Shown piece after piece: positions 3,497 to 9,601 of a stretch of DNA of 9,601 nucleotides. Under the pieces are notes generated by a model. It made no database searches and was not told where the DNA came from. It saw only the letters and a list, made by a program, of their open reading frames with translations. The number at the start of each line of letters is the position of its first letter. Within the stretch, counting starts at the first letter, position 1. Origin of the DNA: Candidatus Rokuibacteriota bacterium. Its GTDB lineage: Bacteria; Methylomirabilota; Methylomirabilia; Rokubacteriales; JACPHL01. The position numbers and the translations under genes were made by a program. The stretch is from the NCBI GenBank assembly GCA_016188625.1, contig JACPHL010000049.1:1-9601 (forward strand), given 5' to 3'.

Positions 3497-3579
3497 GCTG
3501 TGCCCCTGATGGCCTCAAGAGATAGGCGGCAGCGCGATCGCGGCCAGGAAACCCCAGGCCCACTTCCCACGGGATGACC

Positions 3580-3585
3580 TATAAT
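3580..3585 (+). promoter_or_regulatory. Probable -10 box of the HEPN-MNT-SNF2-SWIM-YgiT operon
   Basis: A perfect TATAAT lies with its last base 6 nt before ATG 3592. With the usual spacing from -10 to +1, transcription would start at or next to this ATG, giving a leaderless mRNA. No good -35 box is seen 16-18 nt upstream. This argues against the more upstream in-frame ATG at 3574, which would place the -10 box inside the coding region. Confidence 0.5.
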
Positions 3586-3591
3586 GGTGGC

Positions 3592-3975
3592 ATGCGCCAG
3601 GAGATCGCGCGTCTTCTCAAGCAGGCCGACCGGGATCTCGAAAACGCTCGCAAGAGCCTCACGATCCAAGCCTACGAGGTCTCGGCGTTCCTGGCGCAGC
3701 AGGCGGTCGAAAAGTACCTGAAGGGGGCGTGGGTTCTCCTCAAAAAGGAACCTGCCCCCCACACTCACTCGCTCACGGAGCTCGGCGACGGCGTGGGGAT
3801 CCCGCCCGAGCTTCGGCGGCACCTCGCCGACCTCACCCCCGACTACACCGTGAGCCGCTATCCCAACGCAGCCAACGCCATCCCCTACGAGCTCTACGAC
3901 GAGGCCACGGCCCGGGCCAAGGTGGAGCGCGCGGAAGAGGTCATCCGGTGGCTCAGGACGAGGATCCCAAAGTAG
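3592..3975 (+). CDS. HEPN domain protein (putative toxin partner of the adjacent MNT nucleotidyltransferase)
   Basis: A 127-residue all-helical HEPN domain protein (PF05168-like). Recognised features are the N-terminal helix RQEIARLLKQADRDLENAR, the AFLAQQAVEKYLKGAWVLL helix, PHTHSLTEL, and DYTVSRYPNA with PYELYDEATA near the C-terminus. HEPN proteins commonly pair with MNT nucleotidyltransferases, often as toxin and antitoxin. The classic HEPN ribonuclease motif RX4-6H is not present here: neither histidine of PHTHSL nor the one in RRHLADL has a suitably placed arginine. RNase activity is therefore not supported by the sequence. ATG 3592 is preferred to ATG 3574 because the protein family starts here and a TATAAT box lies between the two. 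The 3' end overlaps the MNT gene by 28 nt, indicating coupled translation. Confidence 0.88.
   Translation: MRQEIARLLKQADRDLENARKSLTIQAYEVSAFLAQQAVEKYLKGAWVLLKKEPAPHTHSLTELGDGVGIPPELRRHLADLTPDYTVSRYPNAANAIPYELYDEATARAKVERAEEVIRWLRTRIPK
3933..3940 (+). promoter_or_regulatory. Ribosome binding site deciding the GTG start of the MNT gene
   Basis: GGAAGAGG lies inside the HEPN gene, 7 nt before GTG 3948. This spacing is good and supports the GTG start over the far upstream ATG at 3729, whose extra residues are an out-of-frame reading of the HEPN gene. Confidence 0.6.
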
Positions 3976-4271
3976 CCGCCTTCGTGCGCGACCACCTCCC
4001 CCGGCTCCGGGAGCGCTTCGCCCCCCTCCGGGTCATCCTCTTCGGCTCTCGAGCCCGCGGCGAGGCTCTCTCGACCAGCGATCTTGACCTGATCCTCATC
4101 TCGCCGTGCTTCGCCTCGGTGCCCTTCCTCGAGCGTCCTGTCAAGATCCTCGAAAGCCTCGGCTACCCCGGCGGGCTCGAGTTGCTCTGCTATACCCCCG
4201 AGGAGTTCGAGGCCAAGCGCGAGGAGATGGGCATAGTCCGCGTCGCCGTCATGGAAGGGATCGAGCTTTAG
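3948..4271 (+). CDS. MNT-type minimal nucleotidyltransferase (putative antitoxin of HEPN)
   Basis: A 107-residue Pol-beta superfamily nucleotidyltransferase. The catalytic core is VILFGSRARGEALSTSDLDL with G33-S34 and metal-binding D45 and D47. The third acidic residue is probably E78 in GLELLCYTPEEFE, where related MNT proteins more often have Asp. In characterised HEPN/MNT pairs the MNT protein neutralises the HEPN partner, in some cases by transferring AMP to a tyrosine. The C-terminus VRVAVMEGIEL is typical of the family. GTG 3948 is chosen as start because it has a good ribosome site and yields a normal family length. The gene overlaps HEPN by 28 nt and is followed after 16 nt by the SNF2 helicase gene. 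Confidence 0.9.
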   Translation: MAQDEDPKVAAFVRDHLPRLRERFAPLRVILFGSRARGEALSTSDLDLILISPCFASVPFLERPVKILESLGYPGGLELLCYTPEEFEAKREEMGIVRVAVMEGIEL

Positions 4272-4287: not shown

Positions 4288-7200
4288 ATGGGCCATCTCG
4301 TCTTCCTCCCGCAACCGGCCGGCGGGCCAGCGCTTTTCCTCTGGGGGCGCGACCCTGGCCGGGCGGGCCCGGGAGTCGTCGAACGGCTGGCCGCCCTGGG
4401 GCGGCGCGGCACCGCCCGGGTGATCACTCCCCGTCCCTCGGTCGAGCGGATGAGCGGGTTGAGGATTCCGCTCTCGGACGGGGCCGCCGTCCTGGCGGGG
4501 CTCGCGGCCGCCGACCTCGACCGCATCCCGGCCTCGGTGGCAGCATGGAGTCTTGCGGCCAAGCTGGCGCTCGAGCTGATGGCGCGGGAACGGATCCTCC
4601 CGCATCCCCGCGCTGATCGAGGGGAAGCCGAGGCCCGGTGGGGCGTCTCCCTGTCCCTCCCCGATGACGCCGGGCGATTCACCCAGCTTGCGCGGGCCCT
4701 GCCCCCAGCAGCCCACGCCGTCCCCCTGGATGGCGAAGAACCCCCCCGCGCCCGTCGAGGCCGGAAGTCCCGGGACGGCGCTCGGGTCTGGGCTCCCGAA
4801 GCGCTCCTGACCGAGTTCCTGGACGCGACGGCGGATGCCCTGGTCAGGCAGGCAGCCGCGCGAACCCCGCTCCGGGCGCGCGCCGGAGAGCGGAGGGGGT
4901 GGGAAGGGCGGTTCGTCGCCGCGCTGACGGAGACAGACGCGTCGTTCCCGACCCAGGGATTCATCGAGCGGGCGCTCCTCGACGAGCTGGCCCGGTGGGC
5001 CGCCCCGGCGCGCGGGGTGCTCGCCGCGCAGACCCCTCGCCTCTGCTTCAAGCTCGACCCTCCCGGCGATGGAACGCGCGCCAGGGCTCGCGGCGCCTGG
5101 CGGCTCTTCTATTTCCTCCAGGCCCCGGACGACCCGAGCCTCCTCCTCCCCGCGGGACGGGTCTGGGCCTCGGCCGAGGAGCGCCTCACGTGGATGGATC
5201 GCACCTTCGCAGCGCCTCAGGAGCTGCTCCTCCGGGGGCTGGCCCAGGCGGCCCGGCTCTCCCCGCCGATCGAACGGAGCCTGGAGGCCCCGCGGCCGGA
5301 GTCCGCCACGCTGAGCGACGAGGAGGCGTGGCGCTTCCTCTCCGAGGCCGCGCCCCTCCTCGGCGAGGCCGGGTGCACGGTCCTCCTCCCGGCCGAGCTG
5401 TCCCCCGCCGGCCAGCGACGGCTCAGACTCAGGATGCAAGTGGGCGGCCGGGCCACCGGGGTCGCGGGCGCGGTGGCCACCGACGGCCGGCTGGCGCTGG
5501 ACGCCCTGGTCGCCTATCGCTGGGAGGTGGCGCTCGGCGATCACCCCCTCTCCCCGGCGGAGTTCAAGGCCCTGGCGGCGCTCAAGCGACCGCTCGTCCG
5601 GTGGCGGGGGGAGTGGGTGGCCCTGGACCCGAATGAGATCGCCGAGACCCGGCGCCTTCTCGCAGAGGCAAAAGACGGCAGGCTTGCCGCGACCGAGGCC
5701 CTGGCCGCCGCGCTCAGAGGAACGCTCCCCCGCGAGGGGTTCCGGGTGCCGGTGGAGGTCGCTCCTGAAGGGCCGCTGGCCTCGGTGATCGAGCGGCTCA
5801 GGGCCGGGATCGAACCCGTCGCCCCTCCCCCCGACCTCGCGGGGACGCTCCGGACGTACCAGGAGCGGGGGCTGGCCTGGCTCGGCCTGATGGCGGGCCT
5901 CGGCCTCGGCGGCTGCCTGGCCGACGACATGGGGCTCGGCAAGACCATTCAGACCATCGCTTTCCTCCTCGCCCGGCGGGCAGGCCGGCCCGCCGATCCC
6001 CGCCCCGCGCTGGTCGTCTGCCCCACCTCCGTCGTCGGCAACTGGGAGCGGGAGCTGGCCCGCTTCGCCCCGACCCTCCCGCTCTTCCGCCACCACGGCC
6101 CCGAGCGGGCGCGAGGCGCCGAGGCCCTCCGGGAAGCGCCCCCGCATGCCGTGGTGGTCACCAGCTACGGCCTCTTGAGGCGCGACCAGGCCCTACTCGG
6201 CGAGATCGACTGGGCGGTGGCGGTCCTCGACGAGGCCCAGAACATCAAGAACGCCGCCTCCCGCCAAGCCCAGGCCGCTCGGGCCCTCCGGGCGTCCCAT
6301 CGCTTCACCCTCACCGGGACCCCCGTGGAGAACCGGCTGGCCGAGCTCTGGTCCATCCTGGAGTTCTGCGCCCCCGGGCTCCTTGGTCCCCTCGAACGCT
6401 TCCGGCGGCAGTTCGCCATCCCCCTCACGCGCGAGCAGGCCACCCTCTACCAGGCTGTCGTAGACGAGACCATGGCGAAGATCGAGGCGGCCGAGGGGAT
6501 CCAGCGCCGGGGGCTCGTCCTGGCGCTCCTGACCGCGCTCAAACAGATCTGCAACCACCCCGCCCACTACCTCCGCGAGCCGGGCCCCCTCCCCGGCCGC
6601 TCGGGGAAGCTCGACCGGCTGAGCGAGATGCTGGAGGAGACGGTGGCCGCGGGAGATTGCGCGCTCGTCTTCACGCAGTTCCGCGAGATGGGCGCGCGGC
6701 TGGTGCCTCACCTCGAACGGGCGCTGGAGCGCGAGATCCTCTTCCTCCACGGGGGCGTCCCCCGCGCGGCCCGCGACGCCATGGTCCACCGCTTCCAGGA
6801 GGATCGGACCGGGCCGCCGATCTTCGTCCTCTCCCTCAAGGCGGGCGGCACCGGGCTCAACCTGACGCGGGCCACCCGCGTCTTCCACTTCGATCGCTGG
6901 TGGAATCCCGCGGTGGAGGACCAGGCCACCGACCGGGCGCACCGGATCGGGCAGCGGTCCCTGGTCCAGGTCTACCGGCTCCTGACCGCGGGGACGGTGG
7001 AGGAGAAGATCGACGCCCTCCTGGCCGACAAGCGGGCCCTGGCCGATCGGATCGTGGGAGCCGGGGAGGCGTGGATCACCGAGCTGTCCGACCAGGAGTT
7101 GAGGCGGCTCCTCACCCTGTCTGGCGATGCCGTGGTCGAGGATGACGAGGAAGAGGCGGGCCGGCGCGCCGGGGCAGGTGCCGGGAGGAGGCGTCGCTGA
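4288..7200 (+). CDS. SNF2-family helicase/ATPase with DUF3670 domain; apparent inter-lobe deletion
   Basis: A 970-residue SNF2-type dsDNA translocase. The N-terminal half (about 1-485) is the bacterial SNF2-associated region, including a DUF3670-like segment from about residue 340 (EEAWRFLSEAAPLLGEAG; RWRGEWVALDPNEI). The ATPase core has motif I DDMGLGKTIQT (K552), motif Ia VVCPTSVVGNWERE, motif II DEAQ (D648-Q651), motif III LTGTPVENRL, LVFTQFREMG, LSLKAGGTGLNL, and motif VI TDRAHRIGQ (H885, R886). Between FRRQFAIP and LTREQATLYQ (around residue 712) relatives normally carry about 50 more residues with an (F/I)LRR(L/M)K element; here the flanks are joined directly in frame. Activity is therefore uncertain. 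No strong ribosome site precedes ATG 4288. The tail is acidic, then Arg/Gly-rich. The stop overlaps the SWIM gene start, a pairing common for this family. Confidence 0.95.
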   Translation: MGHLVFLPQPAGGPALFLWGRDPGRAGPGVVERLAALGRRGTARVITPRPSVERMSGLRIPLSDGAAVLAGLAAADLDRIPASVAAWSLAAKLALELMARERILPHPRADRGEAEARWGVSLSLPDDAGRFTQLARALPPAAHAVPLDGEEPPRARRGRKSRDGARVWAPEALLTEFLDATADALVRQAAARTPLRARAGERRGWEGRFVAALTETDASFPTQGFIERALLDELARWAAPARGVLAAQTPRLCFKLDPPGDGTRARARGAWRLFYFLQAPDDPSLLLPAGRVWASAEERLTWMDRTFAAPQELLLRGLAQAARLSPPIERSLEAPRPESATLSDEEAWRFLSEAAPLLGEAGCTVLLPAELSPAGQRRLRLRMQVGGRATGVAGAVATDGRLALDALVAYRWEVALGDHPLSPAEFKALAALKRPLVRWRGEWVALDPNEIAETRRLLAEAKDGRLAATEALAAALRGTLPREGFRVPVEVAPEGPLASVIERLRAGIEPVAPPPDLAGTLRTYQERGLAWLGLMAGLGLGGCLADDMGLGKTIQTIAFLLARRAGRPADPRPALVVCPTSVVGNWERELARFAPTLPLFRHHGPERARGAEALREAPPHAVVVTSYGLLRRDQALLGEIDWAVAVLDEAQNIKNAASRQAQAARALRASHRFTLTGTPVENRLAELWSILEFCAPGLLGPLERFRRQFAIPLTREQATLYQAVVDETMAKIEAAEGIQRRGLVLALLTALKQICNHPAHYLREPGPLPGRSGKLDRLSEMLEETVAAGDCALVFTQFREMGARLVPHLERALEREILFLHGGVPRAARDAMVHRFQEDRTGPPIFVLSLKAGGTGLNLTRATRVFHFDRWWNPAVEDQATDRAHRIGQRSLVQVYRLLTAGTVEEKIDALLADKRALADRIVGAGEAWITELSDQELRRLLTLSGDAVVEDDEEEAGRRAGAGAGRRRR

Positions 7201-8486
7201 TGGGCCGGGGCTACTGGGGGTGGGGCTCCTATCCGTACTATCCGCCTGCGCCCCCCAAGCGCCCACCTCCTGAGCACGGGATCAAGGTCAAAAAGGTCGG
7301 CGCCACCTGGTGGGGGCAGCGCTGGATCGAGGCCCTGGAGCGGTTCGGCTACGCCTACTCGGCCCGGCTCGGGCGGGGACGGAGCTACGCGCGGCAGGGG
7401 CGCGTCCACGACCTCACCGTCAAGGACGGCGTGGTCGCGGCCCGCGTGACCGGTTCCCGCCCGACGCCCTACCTGGTAACGCTCCGCCCGGCGCCGCTCG
7501 GCGACCGCGTCTGGAAGGCGGCGATCAAGGCCATGGCCGCCCGCGCCGTCTTCGCCGCCCGCCTCCTCGCCGGCGAGATGCCCCGGGAGATCGACGAGGC
7601 GTTCCGGGCGAGCCGCGCCAGCCTCTTCCCCGCGCGGGAGAAGGACCTCGCCACGGCCTGCACCTGCCCGGACTGGGCCAACCCCTGCAAGCACGTGGCC
7701 GCGGTCCACTACGTCCTCGGCGAGGCCTTCGACCGCGACCCGTTCCTCCTCTTCGAGCTGCGCGGTCGCTCCAAAGCGGAGGTGCTGGCGGCGCTCCGCG
7801 GGCTCCGGTCCGCCTCGTCCGAGGTCCCGCCGGCCGCCGAGCCGGAAGAGGCCCCCGCCGGTGTCACGCTCAAGGGGATCGCGCCCGAGGGCTACGAGGC
7901 CTTCCGCGAGCCGGTAGACGCCCTGCGCTTCCACATCGGCGCCCCGGCGGCAGAGGGCGCCCTCCTCCGCCAGCTCGGCGCCCCGCCCTCCTGGCGGCTC
8001 CCCGAGACCCCGCGGGACCTTCTCCAGCCGTTCGTGGCCCGCGCCGCCGCCCTGGCCCGCGAGCTGGCCCTGGGCGCCTCGTCCGATGAAAGCGAGCCGA
8101 CGCCCCCCGCGGCCTCGCCATCGCCCCGCCGGACGCCGCGTCCGGGCAGAAAGAACGAGGCCACCAAGGGATCGGCCGGACGCATCAAGTGGCGGTACCA
8201 TGCGCTCCGCCGGGCATACCAGCGCGGGATTCGACGGGAGCGGGCTCTTCGGGTCATCCAGGAAGGTCAAATCATCGAGCAACGACCCCGGGCTAAGCCC
8301 TTCCCAAAGTATTTGCTGATGGCGATGGTGGAGCCAGACCGACCGCTCTATGTCTCCGTCGGTTACGACCGAGCCAGGGACTACCTCCATGTCATTACCG
8401 TCCACTGGTTCGATCCCCGCAAATGGGAGGACCCCTGGACACGGAAGCCGAAACCTCCTAAGCTAAGGAGGGAGAAGGAACCATGA
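7200..8486 (+). CDS. SWIM zinc-finger protein fused to a C-terminal DUF4258 toxin-like domain
   Basis: A 428-residue two-part protein. Residues about 1-297 are the SWIM protein that commonly accompanies SNF2/DUF3670 helicases: an aromatic/Pro-rich start (GYWGWGSYPYYPP), WWGQRWIEALE, and the zinc motif C154-x-C156-x6-C163-x-H165 (CTCPDWANPCKH), ending in the usual LRFHIG...LLRQLGAPPSW region. A Ser/Pro/Arg/Lys-rich linker (about 298-328) leads to a DUF4258 domain (about 329-415) with YHALRRAYQRGI, VIQEGQIIE, and PLYVSVGYD...LHVITVHWFDPRKW. DUF4258 is usually a small separate protein related to the MqsR/RelE toxins. No ATG, GTG or TTG in frame lies at the domain start, so a fusion is the simplest reading. 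ATG 7200 overlaps the helicase TGA, with GGAGGAGG 8 nt upstream. The stop overlaps the YgiT start (ATGA). Confidence 0.92.
   Translation: MGRGYWGWGSYPYYPPAPPKRPPPEHGIKVKKVGATWWGQRWIEALERFGYAYSARLGRGRSYARQGRVHDLTVKDGVVAARVTGSRPTPYLVTLRPAPLGDRVWKAAIKAMAARAVFAARLLAGEMPREIDEAFRASRASLFPAREKDLATACTCPDWANPCKHVAAVHYVLGEAFDRDPFLLFELRGRSKAEVLAALRGLRSASSEVPPAAEPEEAPAGVTLKGIAPEGYEAFREPVDALRFHIGAPAAEGALLRQLGAPPSWRLPETPRDLLQPFVARAAALARELALGASSDESEPTPPAASPSPRRTPRPGRKNEATKGSAGRIKWRYHALRRAYQRGIRRERALRVIQEGQIIEQRPRAKPFPKYLLMAMVEPDRPLYVSVGYDRARDYLHVITVHWFDPRKWEDPWTRKPKPPKLRREKEP
8454..8471 (+). promoter_or_regulatory. Hairpin that can mask the ribosome binding site of the YgiT gene
   Basis: CCTCCT (8454-8459) and AGGAGG (8466-8471) are perfect complements around a 6-nt loop (AAGCTA). 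AGGAGG is the best Shine-Dalgarno for ATG 8483, at a spacing of 11 nt. The structure lies in the last codons of the SWIM-DUF4258 gene, so translation of that gene could open it and couple YgiT production to toxin-domain production. A second purine run (GGAGAAGGA, 8471-8479) lies closer to the start and may also serve. Confidence 0.45.
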
Positions 8487-8746
8487 AGACCAGAACCAAA
8501 CTTCCTAAAGAGCGTTGCGCCGTTTGTGGTGGTCGGCTCCAGCGGACTACCATTACCCACGAGGAACGGCGTGGGACGAACCTCTATCTCTTCCAGAATG
8601 TGCCGGCTCAGGTGTGCACCGCCTGTGGAGAGATCTGGATCAAGGAGGCAACCCTCCAAGAGATCGACCGGCTCATTCGAGAGGGCGAACCCATCCAGAA
8701 GGTCGAGACTCCGGTCTACGACTTCGCCGCTGCTGGTATACAGTAA
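8483..8746 (+). CDS. YgiT-type zinc-finger protein (MqsA N-terminal-like antitoxin)
   Basis: An 87-residue protein with two zinc knuckles, C12-x2-C15 (CAVCGG) and C45-x2-C48 (CTACGE), separated by the usual beta-hairpin region YLFQNVPAQV. The tail EIDRLIREGEPIQKVETPVYDF is typical of stand-alone YgiT-type proteins. It resembles the zinc-binding, toxin-contacting domain of MqsA but has no C-terminal helix-turn-helix, so autoregulation by DNA binding is not supported. Such proteins regularly sit next to DUF4258 proteins as presumed antitoxins; here the DUF4258 domain is the C-terminus of the preceding SWIM fusion, and the genes overlap by ATGA. It presumably binds that domain. Base composition is visibly less GC-rich than in the helicase gene, consistent with later acquisition of this module. 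Confidence 0.9.
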   Translation: MKTRTKLPKERCAVCGGRLQRTTITHEERRGTNLYLFQNVPAQVCTACGEIWIKEATLQEIDRLIREGEPIQKVETPVYDFAAAGIQ

Positions 8747-8775
8747 AGTTCCTTCGCCACACCTCATGGTTCGCC

Positions 8776-8832
8776 AGGATCCTCAAGCAGGCCAAGATCA
8801 GCCTGGCTGAGTTCCTGCGTCACGACCCATAG
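8776..8832 (+). pseudogene. Possible hicA C-terminal remnant
   Basis: In the frame ending at TAG 8830-8832, the last 18 residues read RILKQAKISLAEFLRHDP. This resembles the common C-terminal helix of HicA mRNA interferases (of the type R-S-I-L-K-Q-A-G-I-S-x-E-E-F-L). Upstream in the same frame there is no HicA-like dsRBD fold or catalytic histidine, only an out-of-frame reading of the YgiT gene. It is best explained as debris of a third toxin gene. The match is short, so a chance resemblance remains possible. Confidence 0.4.
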
Positions 8833-8871: not shown

Positions 8872-9270
8872 TCACAGAACGGGCCAGAACAGCTCTTCGC
8901 TCTCAATCGTTTCAAAGCACTCCGAAAGGCTCAGGCCGGCGTACACAGTCCACCAGCGGTTCGTGTGCCGGAAGTACGCGAGGTTGAATCGACCGAGATC
9001 CGTGTATTCGAGGCGGGTGCTGCGCACGACAAAATCATCGGCCGGACGACCGCCTGGTGTACGGTACCTGGTGCAAAGGTAAAAGTACCGGCCCCGCCCT
9101 TCAGCAAACACCTCGATAGGGTAATTGAACGCGTGACGGCGGCGGCGCTCAAGGGGAACGCGCGGCTCAAATTTTCGAGAAAGGAGTTCGTTTGCTCGCT
9201 TCAATACCTCGCGCCTCATCGACTCGGGCACGTCGGCTGCCGTTCCATGCGCTTTCCGTCGCTGCGCCAT
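8872..9270 (-). CDS. Uncharacterised 132-residue cassette protein
   Basis: I do not recognise a named function. The protein has a basic N-terminus, a helical segment (SMRREVLKRANELLSRKF), then a beta-rich and aromatic core (HAFNYPIEVFAEGRGRYFYLCTRYRTP, TRLEYTDLGRFNLAYFRHTNRWWTVY) and an acidic end (LSECFETIESEELFWPVL). No signal peptide or membrane segment is seen. ATG 9270 lies 30 nt after the predicted attC crossover point and has no Shine-Dalgarno, as often seen for integron cassette genes; ATG 9219 (residue 18) is an alternative start. It is transcribed in the same direction as the HNH gene across the attC site. No second attC is visible after its stop, so the distal end of the cassette may be lost. 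Base composition is less extreme than in the purine and helicase genes. Confidence 0.75.
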   Translation of the reverse strand: MAQRRKAHGTAADVPESMRREVLKRANELLSRKFEPRVPLERRRRHAFNYPIEVFAEGRGRYFYLCTRYRTPGGRPADDFVVRSTRLEYTDLGRFNLAYFRHTNRWWTVYAGLSLSECFETIESEELFWPVL

Positions 9271-9294: not shown

Positions 9295-9366
9295 GTCTAA
9301 CGCGCGCGGTGAGCAGCCGCGGCGAGCGAATGCGAGCCAGCGGTCTGCTCTACTGCGAGGTTAGAC
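9295..9366 (-). other. attC: Integron attC recombination site
   Basis: The 72-bp site begins GTCTAAC (9295-9301) and ends GTTAGAC (9360-9366), matching the attC consensus RYYYAAC/GTTRRRY as a perfect inverted repeat (one more C-G pair lies outside). Inside, after 9-nt spacers, GAGCAG (9311-9316), CCGC (9317-9320) and GGC (9321-9323) pair with CTGCTC (9345-9350), GCGG (9340-9343) and GCC (9336-9338). A9339 and T9344 are left as extrahelical bases, and the terminal loop is 12 nt. Extra bases on the right arm imply R'' at 9366-9360 and R' at 9301-9295 on the minus strand, so cassettes are oriented leftward. The HNH stop codon TAA (9363-9361) falls inside R'', typical of cassette genes. The predicted crossover is between 9301 and 9300. 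Confidence 0.88.
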
Positions 9367-9601
9367 GCCCGGTTGCCGCACGTCGTCCCGATCAGCCTTT
9401 CCCAGATTGCACTTCGAGCAGAGGGTCTGGAGATTCTCGAGCGCGGTCTCTCCGCTTCGGACGAACGGGACAACGTGGTCCACATGCAGCTCGACGGTAA
9501 GATCCGAGATGGGCGATCTACCACAGAACACGCAGCGGAAGCGGTCACGCTGATACACCTTCAATCGAAGGCCCGCTGGAACTTCTCTGGAAGCCCTCTT
9601 C
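9361..9601 (-). CDS. HNH endonuclease family protein (5' end beyond window)
   Basis: C-terminal 79 residues of an HNH nuclease. Seen in order: REVPAGLRLKVYQRDRFRC, a first zinc knuckle CVFC, the HNH core LHVDHVVPF with the VDH dyad, the Asn of ALENLQTL, and a second knuckle CSKCNLGK. This is a metal-dependent ββα-metal nuclease fold typical of McrA-like and accessory nucleases. A TTG at 9564 gives an apparent start, but the frame stays open through the right edge and the upstream residues match the usual family lead-in, so the true start lies outside. The stop codon TAA lies in the attC R'' box, so this is a cassette gene just upstream of that attC. A full-length partner domain, defence role or DNA target cannot be seen here. 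Confidence 0.88.
   Translation of the reverse strand, partial: KRASREVPAGLRLKVYQRDRFRCVFCGRSPISDLTVELHVDHVVPFVRSGETALENLQTLCSKCNLGKADRDDVRQPGV

Follow-up and report, generated by a model that had tools for sequence, protein, structure and literature searches.

At its right end, the window discussed here (the whole 9,601-nt stretch of contig JACPHL010000049.1) carries an attC hairpin at positions 9295–9366, and the contig ends at 9601, 235 bases past the site. Read along the minus strand, an HNH gene (9600–9361) runs into the attC (9366–9295), which is followed after 24 nt by a DUF3024 gene (9270–8872). The individual features are given below, with bit scores from two covariance models, R1 and R2, that are described further on.

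9361–9600, minus strand: 3′ part of a gene for an HNH endonuclease, running off the contig with 79 aa visible (PF01844, E 3e-12; PF14279, E 7e-9)
9295–9366, minus strand (cassette sense): attC site, 72 nt, the plus strand being the bottom, recombinogenic strand (R1, 67.2 bits; R2, 35.5 bits)
9360–9366, minus strand: R″ box GTCTAAC, which fits RYYYAAC and pairs perfectly with R′
9351, A on the minus strand and T on the plus strand: extrahelical base 1, at minus-strand position 16, which is class 1 attC column 16
9345–9350, minus strand: L″ core stem (GAGCAG), flanked by the two extrahelical bases and paired with 9311–9316 in the DNA fold and the covariance-model alignment
9344, A on the minus strand and T on the plus strand: extrahelical base 2, at position 23, which is class 1 column 23, six bases from base 1
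9317–9345, minus strand: 29-nt apical core GACCGCTGGCTCGCATTCGCTCGCCGCGG, the variable terminal structure with flanks, with 25 exact public copies
9339, T on the minus strand: third single-base bulge, nearer the apex, at minus-strand position 28 (DNA fold)
9295–9301, minus strand: R′ box GTTAGAC, which fits GTTRRRY
8872–9270, minus strand: gene for a 132-aa DUF3024 protein, beginning 24 nt past R′, with no attC behind it (PF11225, E 4e-13)

The remainder of the window holds several other genes of note on the plus strand. At 3574–4271, a HEPN domain protein and, behind it, a nucleotidyltransferase (MNT) form a HEPN-MNT pair. The gene at 7200–8486 appears to be an in-frame fusion of a SWIM zinc-finger protein with a DUF4258 domain, and a small YgiT/MqsA-like zinc-ribbon protein follows (8483–8746); together they resemble a toxin-antitoxin pair attached to a SWIM gene, and they adjoin an SNF2 helicase (4288–7200). 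A short open stretch at 8746–8832, ending in KQAKISLAEFLRHDP, resembles by eye the C-terminus of a HicA-type toxin and is possibly a gene remnant.

The outermost elements of the hairpin are the inverted R boxes. Both GTCTAAC at 9295–9301 and GTTAGAC at 9360–9366 are exact, as the first-pass annotation of this DNA had claimed, and they form seven of seven pairs around an imperfect palindrome of 58 nt. The pattern GTCTAACN{45,70}GTTAGAC occurs once in the 2.6-Mb genome (84%-complete), and the mirror-control pattern of the R-box pair has no occurrence there. At attC spacing, a RYYYAAC/GTTRRRY pair with perfect complementarity turns up in 0.45% of Markov-shuffled windows, a count in which the stem is not yet demanded. 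From established attC knowledge, we take the crossover to be expected in R′, between G (9301) and TT (9300–9299). Folded as DNA, the plus strand reaches −28.9 kcal/mol (z −4.6), which none of 200 shuffles equalled, so that the imperfect stem claimed earlier is real, and the minus strand reaches −25.3 kcal/mol. The polarity is that of an attC, with the bottom (plus) strand folding better and the model score higher on the sense strand of the gene. Two extrahelical bulges on one arm had been described: the restriction to one arm stands, every single-base bulge lying on the L″ side (minus strand), and the count is corrected to three by the bulge at 9339. The symmetric 9-nt spacers that had been noted are present when the first bulge is included in the count, although part of their length is paired. 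On the bottom strand the extrahelical bases read T-N6-T, and the CCGC[T]GGC apex, which includes the third bulge, is seen again in relatives.

A gathering-threshold scan of the window with Rfam gave no match, and the attC was therefore scored with purpose-built models. R1 was built from 18 aligned attC-like palindromes from genomes of the same order, with the window site held out. In its seed alignment, the 22 base pairs are formed in 94.6% of cells, a percentage that arises partly by construction because the seeds were chosen as hairpins, and 13 pairs have changed on both sides. Under R1, the window site scores 67.2 bits with an E-value of 1e-15 on the minus strand and 19.2 bits on the plus strand, values that are not fully independent of the site given that one seed (L103) has the apical core of the window. 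The next-best place in the window scores 14.2 bits, and an unfiltered R1 scan found no second attC above background anywhere in the window, including the region after the DUF3024 gene. As a check on plasmid class 1 integrons, R1 found attCs directly behind annotated cassette genes (aadA1, aadA2, aadB, catB3, catB8, dfrA12, and others) and on the correct strand, scoring the aadA1 site at 54.5 bits and less typical sites lower, to about 20 or below. Of 20 control genomes from outside the class, 14 had no R1 match and the rest had none above about 45 bits; R1 had matches in eight of the eight class-member genomes tried. The second model, R2, contains ten plasmid class 1 attCs and nothing else, and the site is its sole convincing match in the window (35.5 bits, E 2e-8, minus strand; next place, 9.2). 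The covariance-model check that had been suggested for the site was thus passed with both models, on the strand expected from the flanking genes, and the attC identity put forward in the first-pass annotation is borne out by the R boxes, the extrahelical bases, their side, the polarity, and the agreement of the two models.

Known sites provide useful comparisons. The class 1 attCs of aadA1, aadA2, aadB, and catB3 share with the window site the R boxes, the extrahelical bases in columns 16 and 23, the six-base spacing, and the bottom-strand polarity. The window site differs from them in its longer apex (72 vs 60 nt overall), its higher GC content, its extra apical bulge, and its bottom-strand extrahelical bases, which are T-N6-T where those of class 1 are mostly T-N6-G. 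A chromosomal attC of a Candidatus Rokubacteria genome (GWC2_70_16, MGBV01000106.1; locus L140) matches the window site in its length of 72 nt, its 29-nt core, and its extrahelical positions. Its L arms are GACCGG/CCGGTC whereas those of the window are GAGCAG/CTGCTC, which are compensating changes, and a different gene lies upstream. The coordinates of this attC are those of an attC on contig C106 of genome G053, which has an integron integrase (IntI) above the cut-off. The genome of the window probably belongs to a separate family within the order that includes Rokubacteria. Across the order as a whole, attCs and IntI are both abundant. R1 found attC matches in 57 of 60 genomes, integron integrases above the TIGR02249 cut-off were present in 24 of the 60 (and in none of 14 control genomes), and several attC arrays in the order loci adjoin intI.

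The genes on either side of the site bear on whether it belongs to a gene cassette. The arrangement that characterizes one is found here: the HNH gene lies directly upstream of the attC in the same orientation, with its own upstream border off the contig. The stop codon said to be embedded in R″ is indeed that of the HNH fragment (TAA, 9361–9363, minus strand), and the flanking genes do run in the same direction, HNH and DUF3024 both being on the minus strand. PF01844 and PF14279 are HNH families named among the abundant integron functions (PMC7370490). A genome of the same order, G002, encodes a relative of the HNH protein with 91% identity, and its DNA matches that of the window at this gene up to just past GTCTAAC and then diverges. 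The G002 copy has GTTAGAC just before its ATG and GTCTAAC across its stop codon, and it therefore has cassette borders. No attC stem was found at these borders, R1 having no match in the locus (L076). At L076:1840–1895 and 2622–2700 (G002:C116), the R boxes are retained and the hairpin stems are gone on both sides of the HNH cassette; either loss by deletion or an assembly effect would account for their absence. The DUF3024 domain is rare in the lineage, with a Pfam profile finding it in 7 of 119 genomes. Such a profile is needed to find relatives, as protein similarity is insufficient: searches of public genome contigs with the DUF3024 protein and by similarity in the 119 relatives returned nothing outside its own genome. 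In genome G015, a DUF3024 gene (114 aa) sits between two attCs downstream of intI, and in G006 and G038 degenerate DUF3024 copies follow an attC, as in the window. The DUF3024 gene of the window is probably a cassette whose own attC is gone, or else the first gene of the host past the array.

In the assembled genome, the window site is the only intact attC. R1 has two other matches there, at 34.7 and 33.6 bits, which have lost their R boxes. These decayed attC-like sites, G000:C104:636–691 (L136) and G000:C76:17276–17336 (L135), retain the L stem, and the former lies a few hundred bases past a HigA-like antitoxin gene. No IntI above the cut-off was found in the rest of the 84%-complete assembly, where the recombinases consist only of full-length XerC/XerD-like proteins and a phage-type integrase fragment. 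The integrase that the first-pass annotation expected past the right edge would lie outside the contig. Two of the genome's own tyrosine recombinases (on contigs C201 and C106) were rejected as candidate IntI proteins because they match the XerC and XerD/tyrosine recombinase families best. A search for close matches to the window attC on plasmids found none.

Taken with these results, the hairpin is almost certainly the attC of an HNH-endonuclease gene cassette, situated at the broken end of a probable cassette array in a chromosome of the order that contains Rokubacteria. We count against this explanation that the site is the sole intact attC in the window and the genome, that the genome has no IntI above the cut-off, and that the second bottom-strand extrahelical base is T where class 1 has mostly G. 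An alternative that concerns the surroundings of the site rather than its identity is a lone remnant, in which the attC is genuine by descent, the integron is gone, and what is left is a single cassette or a CALIN remnant without an integrase, like the two decayed sites elsewhere in the genome. We give this reading slightly less than an even chance, and its probability overlaps with that of the cassette explanation. It draws on the finding of one intact and two decayed attCs with no IntI in an 84%-complete assembly, and on G002, the nearest relative with the HNH cassette, where IntI is broken and the attC stems are missing at the HNH borders. The window site itself, however, shows no damage, and the break in the contig 235 nt past it is of the kind that draft assemblies often have at repeated cassette arrays (PMC9024848). 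The window resembles a CALIN in having an attC and no integrase found in the assembly; the default of IntegronFinder 2.0 for a CALIN is at least two attC sites (PMC9024848), whereas the window shows one intact site with the contig ending there.

The remaining alternatives dispute the identity of the site. An intrinsic transcription terminator or a generic intergenic palindrome would also place a G+C-rich hairpin right behind a stop codon, yet no T-run follows the hairpin, and the R boxes, the extrahelical bases in fixed columns, and the polarity match models from two unrelated sources, which argues strongly against this explanation and leaves it very improbable. A chance palindrome, for which the easy folding of high-GC sequence might speak, is refuted by the held-out E-value of 1e-15, the absence of an equally good fold among 200 shuffles, and the rarity of the R-box pair (0.45% of shuffles), and its probability is negligible.

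For an attC at the end of an HNH cassette, a mechanism can be proposed by analogy with known integrons. The extrahelical bases mediate the binding of IntI to the folded bottom strand, and sites with a spacing of six are excised best (PMC3053210). In the case of the window site, the plus (bottom) strand, when single-stranded, would form a hairpin whose two extrahelical bases lie on one side, and an integron integrase would be expected to bind this folded strand. Cutting in the R′ box would then allow the cassette to be excised or to be joined to attI or another attC. We infer that this copy recombines, that it is served by an integrase in cis or in trans, and that further cassettes follow past the end of the contig.

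The apical core of the site extends the comparison well beyond the order. A GTDB-based collection contains 25 exact copies of the 29-nt core in 24 contigs (loci L138–L161), under record titles that include Rokubacteria, Acidobacteria, Armatimonadetes, Brocadia, Hydrogenedentota, Deltaproteobacteria, and Acidithiobacillus. As attCs, 24 of the 25 copies score at least 45 bits. The genes upstream of these attCs are unrelated, and 11 of them stop inside R″ with TAA, like that of the window. Within the order loci, a CTCGC..GCTCG apex is present in 47 of 114 distinct attCs. The identical core occurs in at least six phyla or classes, an estimate of cross-phylum conservation that is biased because an exact-match search favors identical cores and MAG bins may be contaminated; the adjoining L arms vary with compensation. 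An apex sequence kept across phyla could mean that the apex itself is recognized, or that a single recent pool in soil and groundwater, in which cassettes are both made and shared, is the source of them all, although we regard this interpretation as rather unlikely. Sites of this kind are reported to group by environment and not by host phylogeny (PMC8352920), and an identical apical core in several phyla is in line with such clustering.

The site in the window is itself an ordinary attC of a known kind. The literature that we searched contained no description of integrons in this order, and it is the commonness of integrons there that is mildly interesting. What the finding brings to notice is an order of uncultured bacteria whose genomes nearly all have matches to an attC model and in 40% of cases carry an integron integrase.
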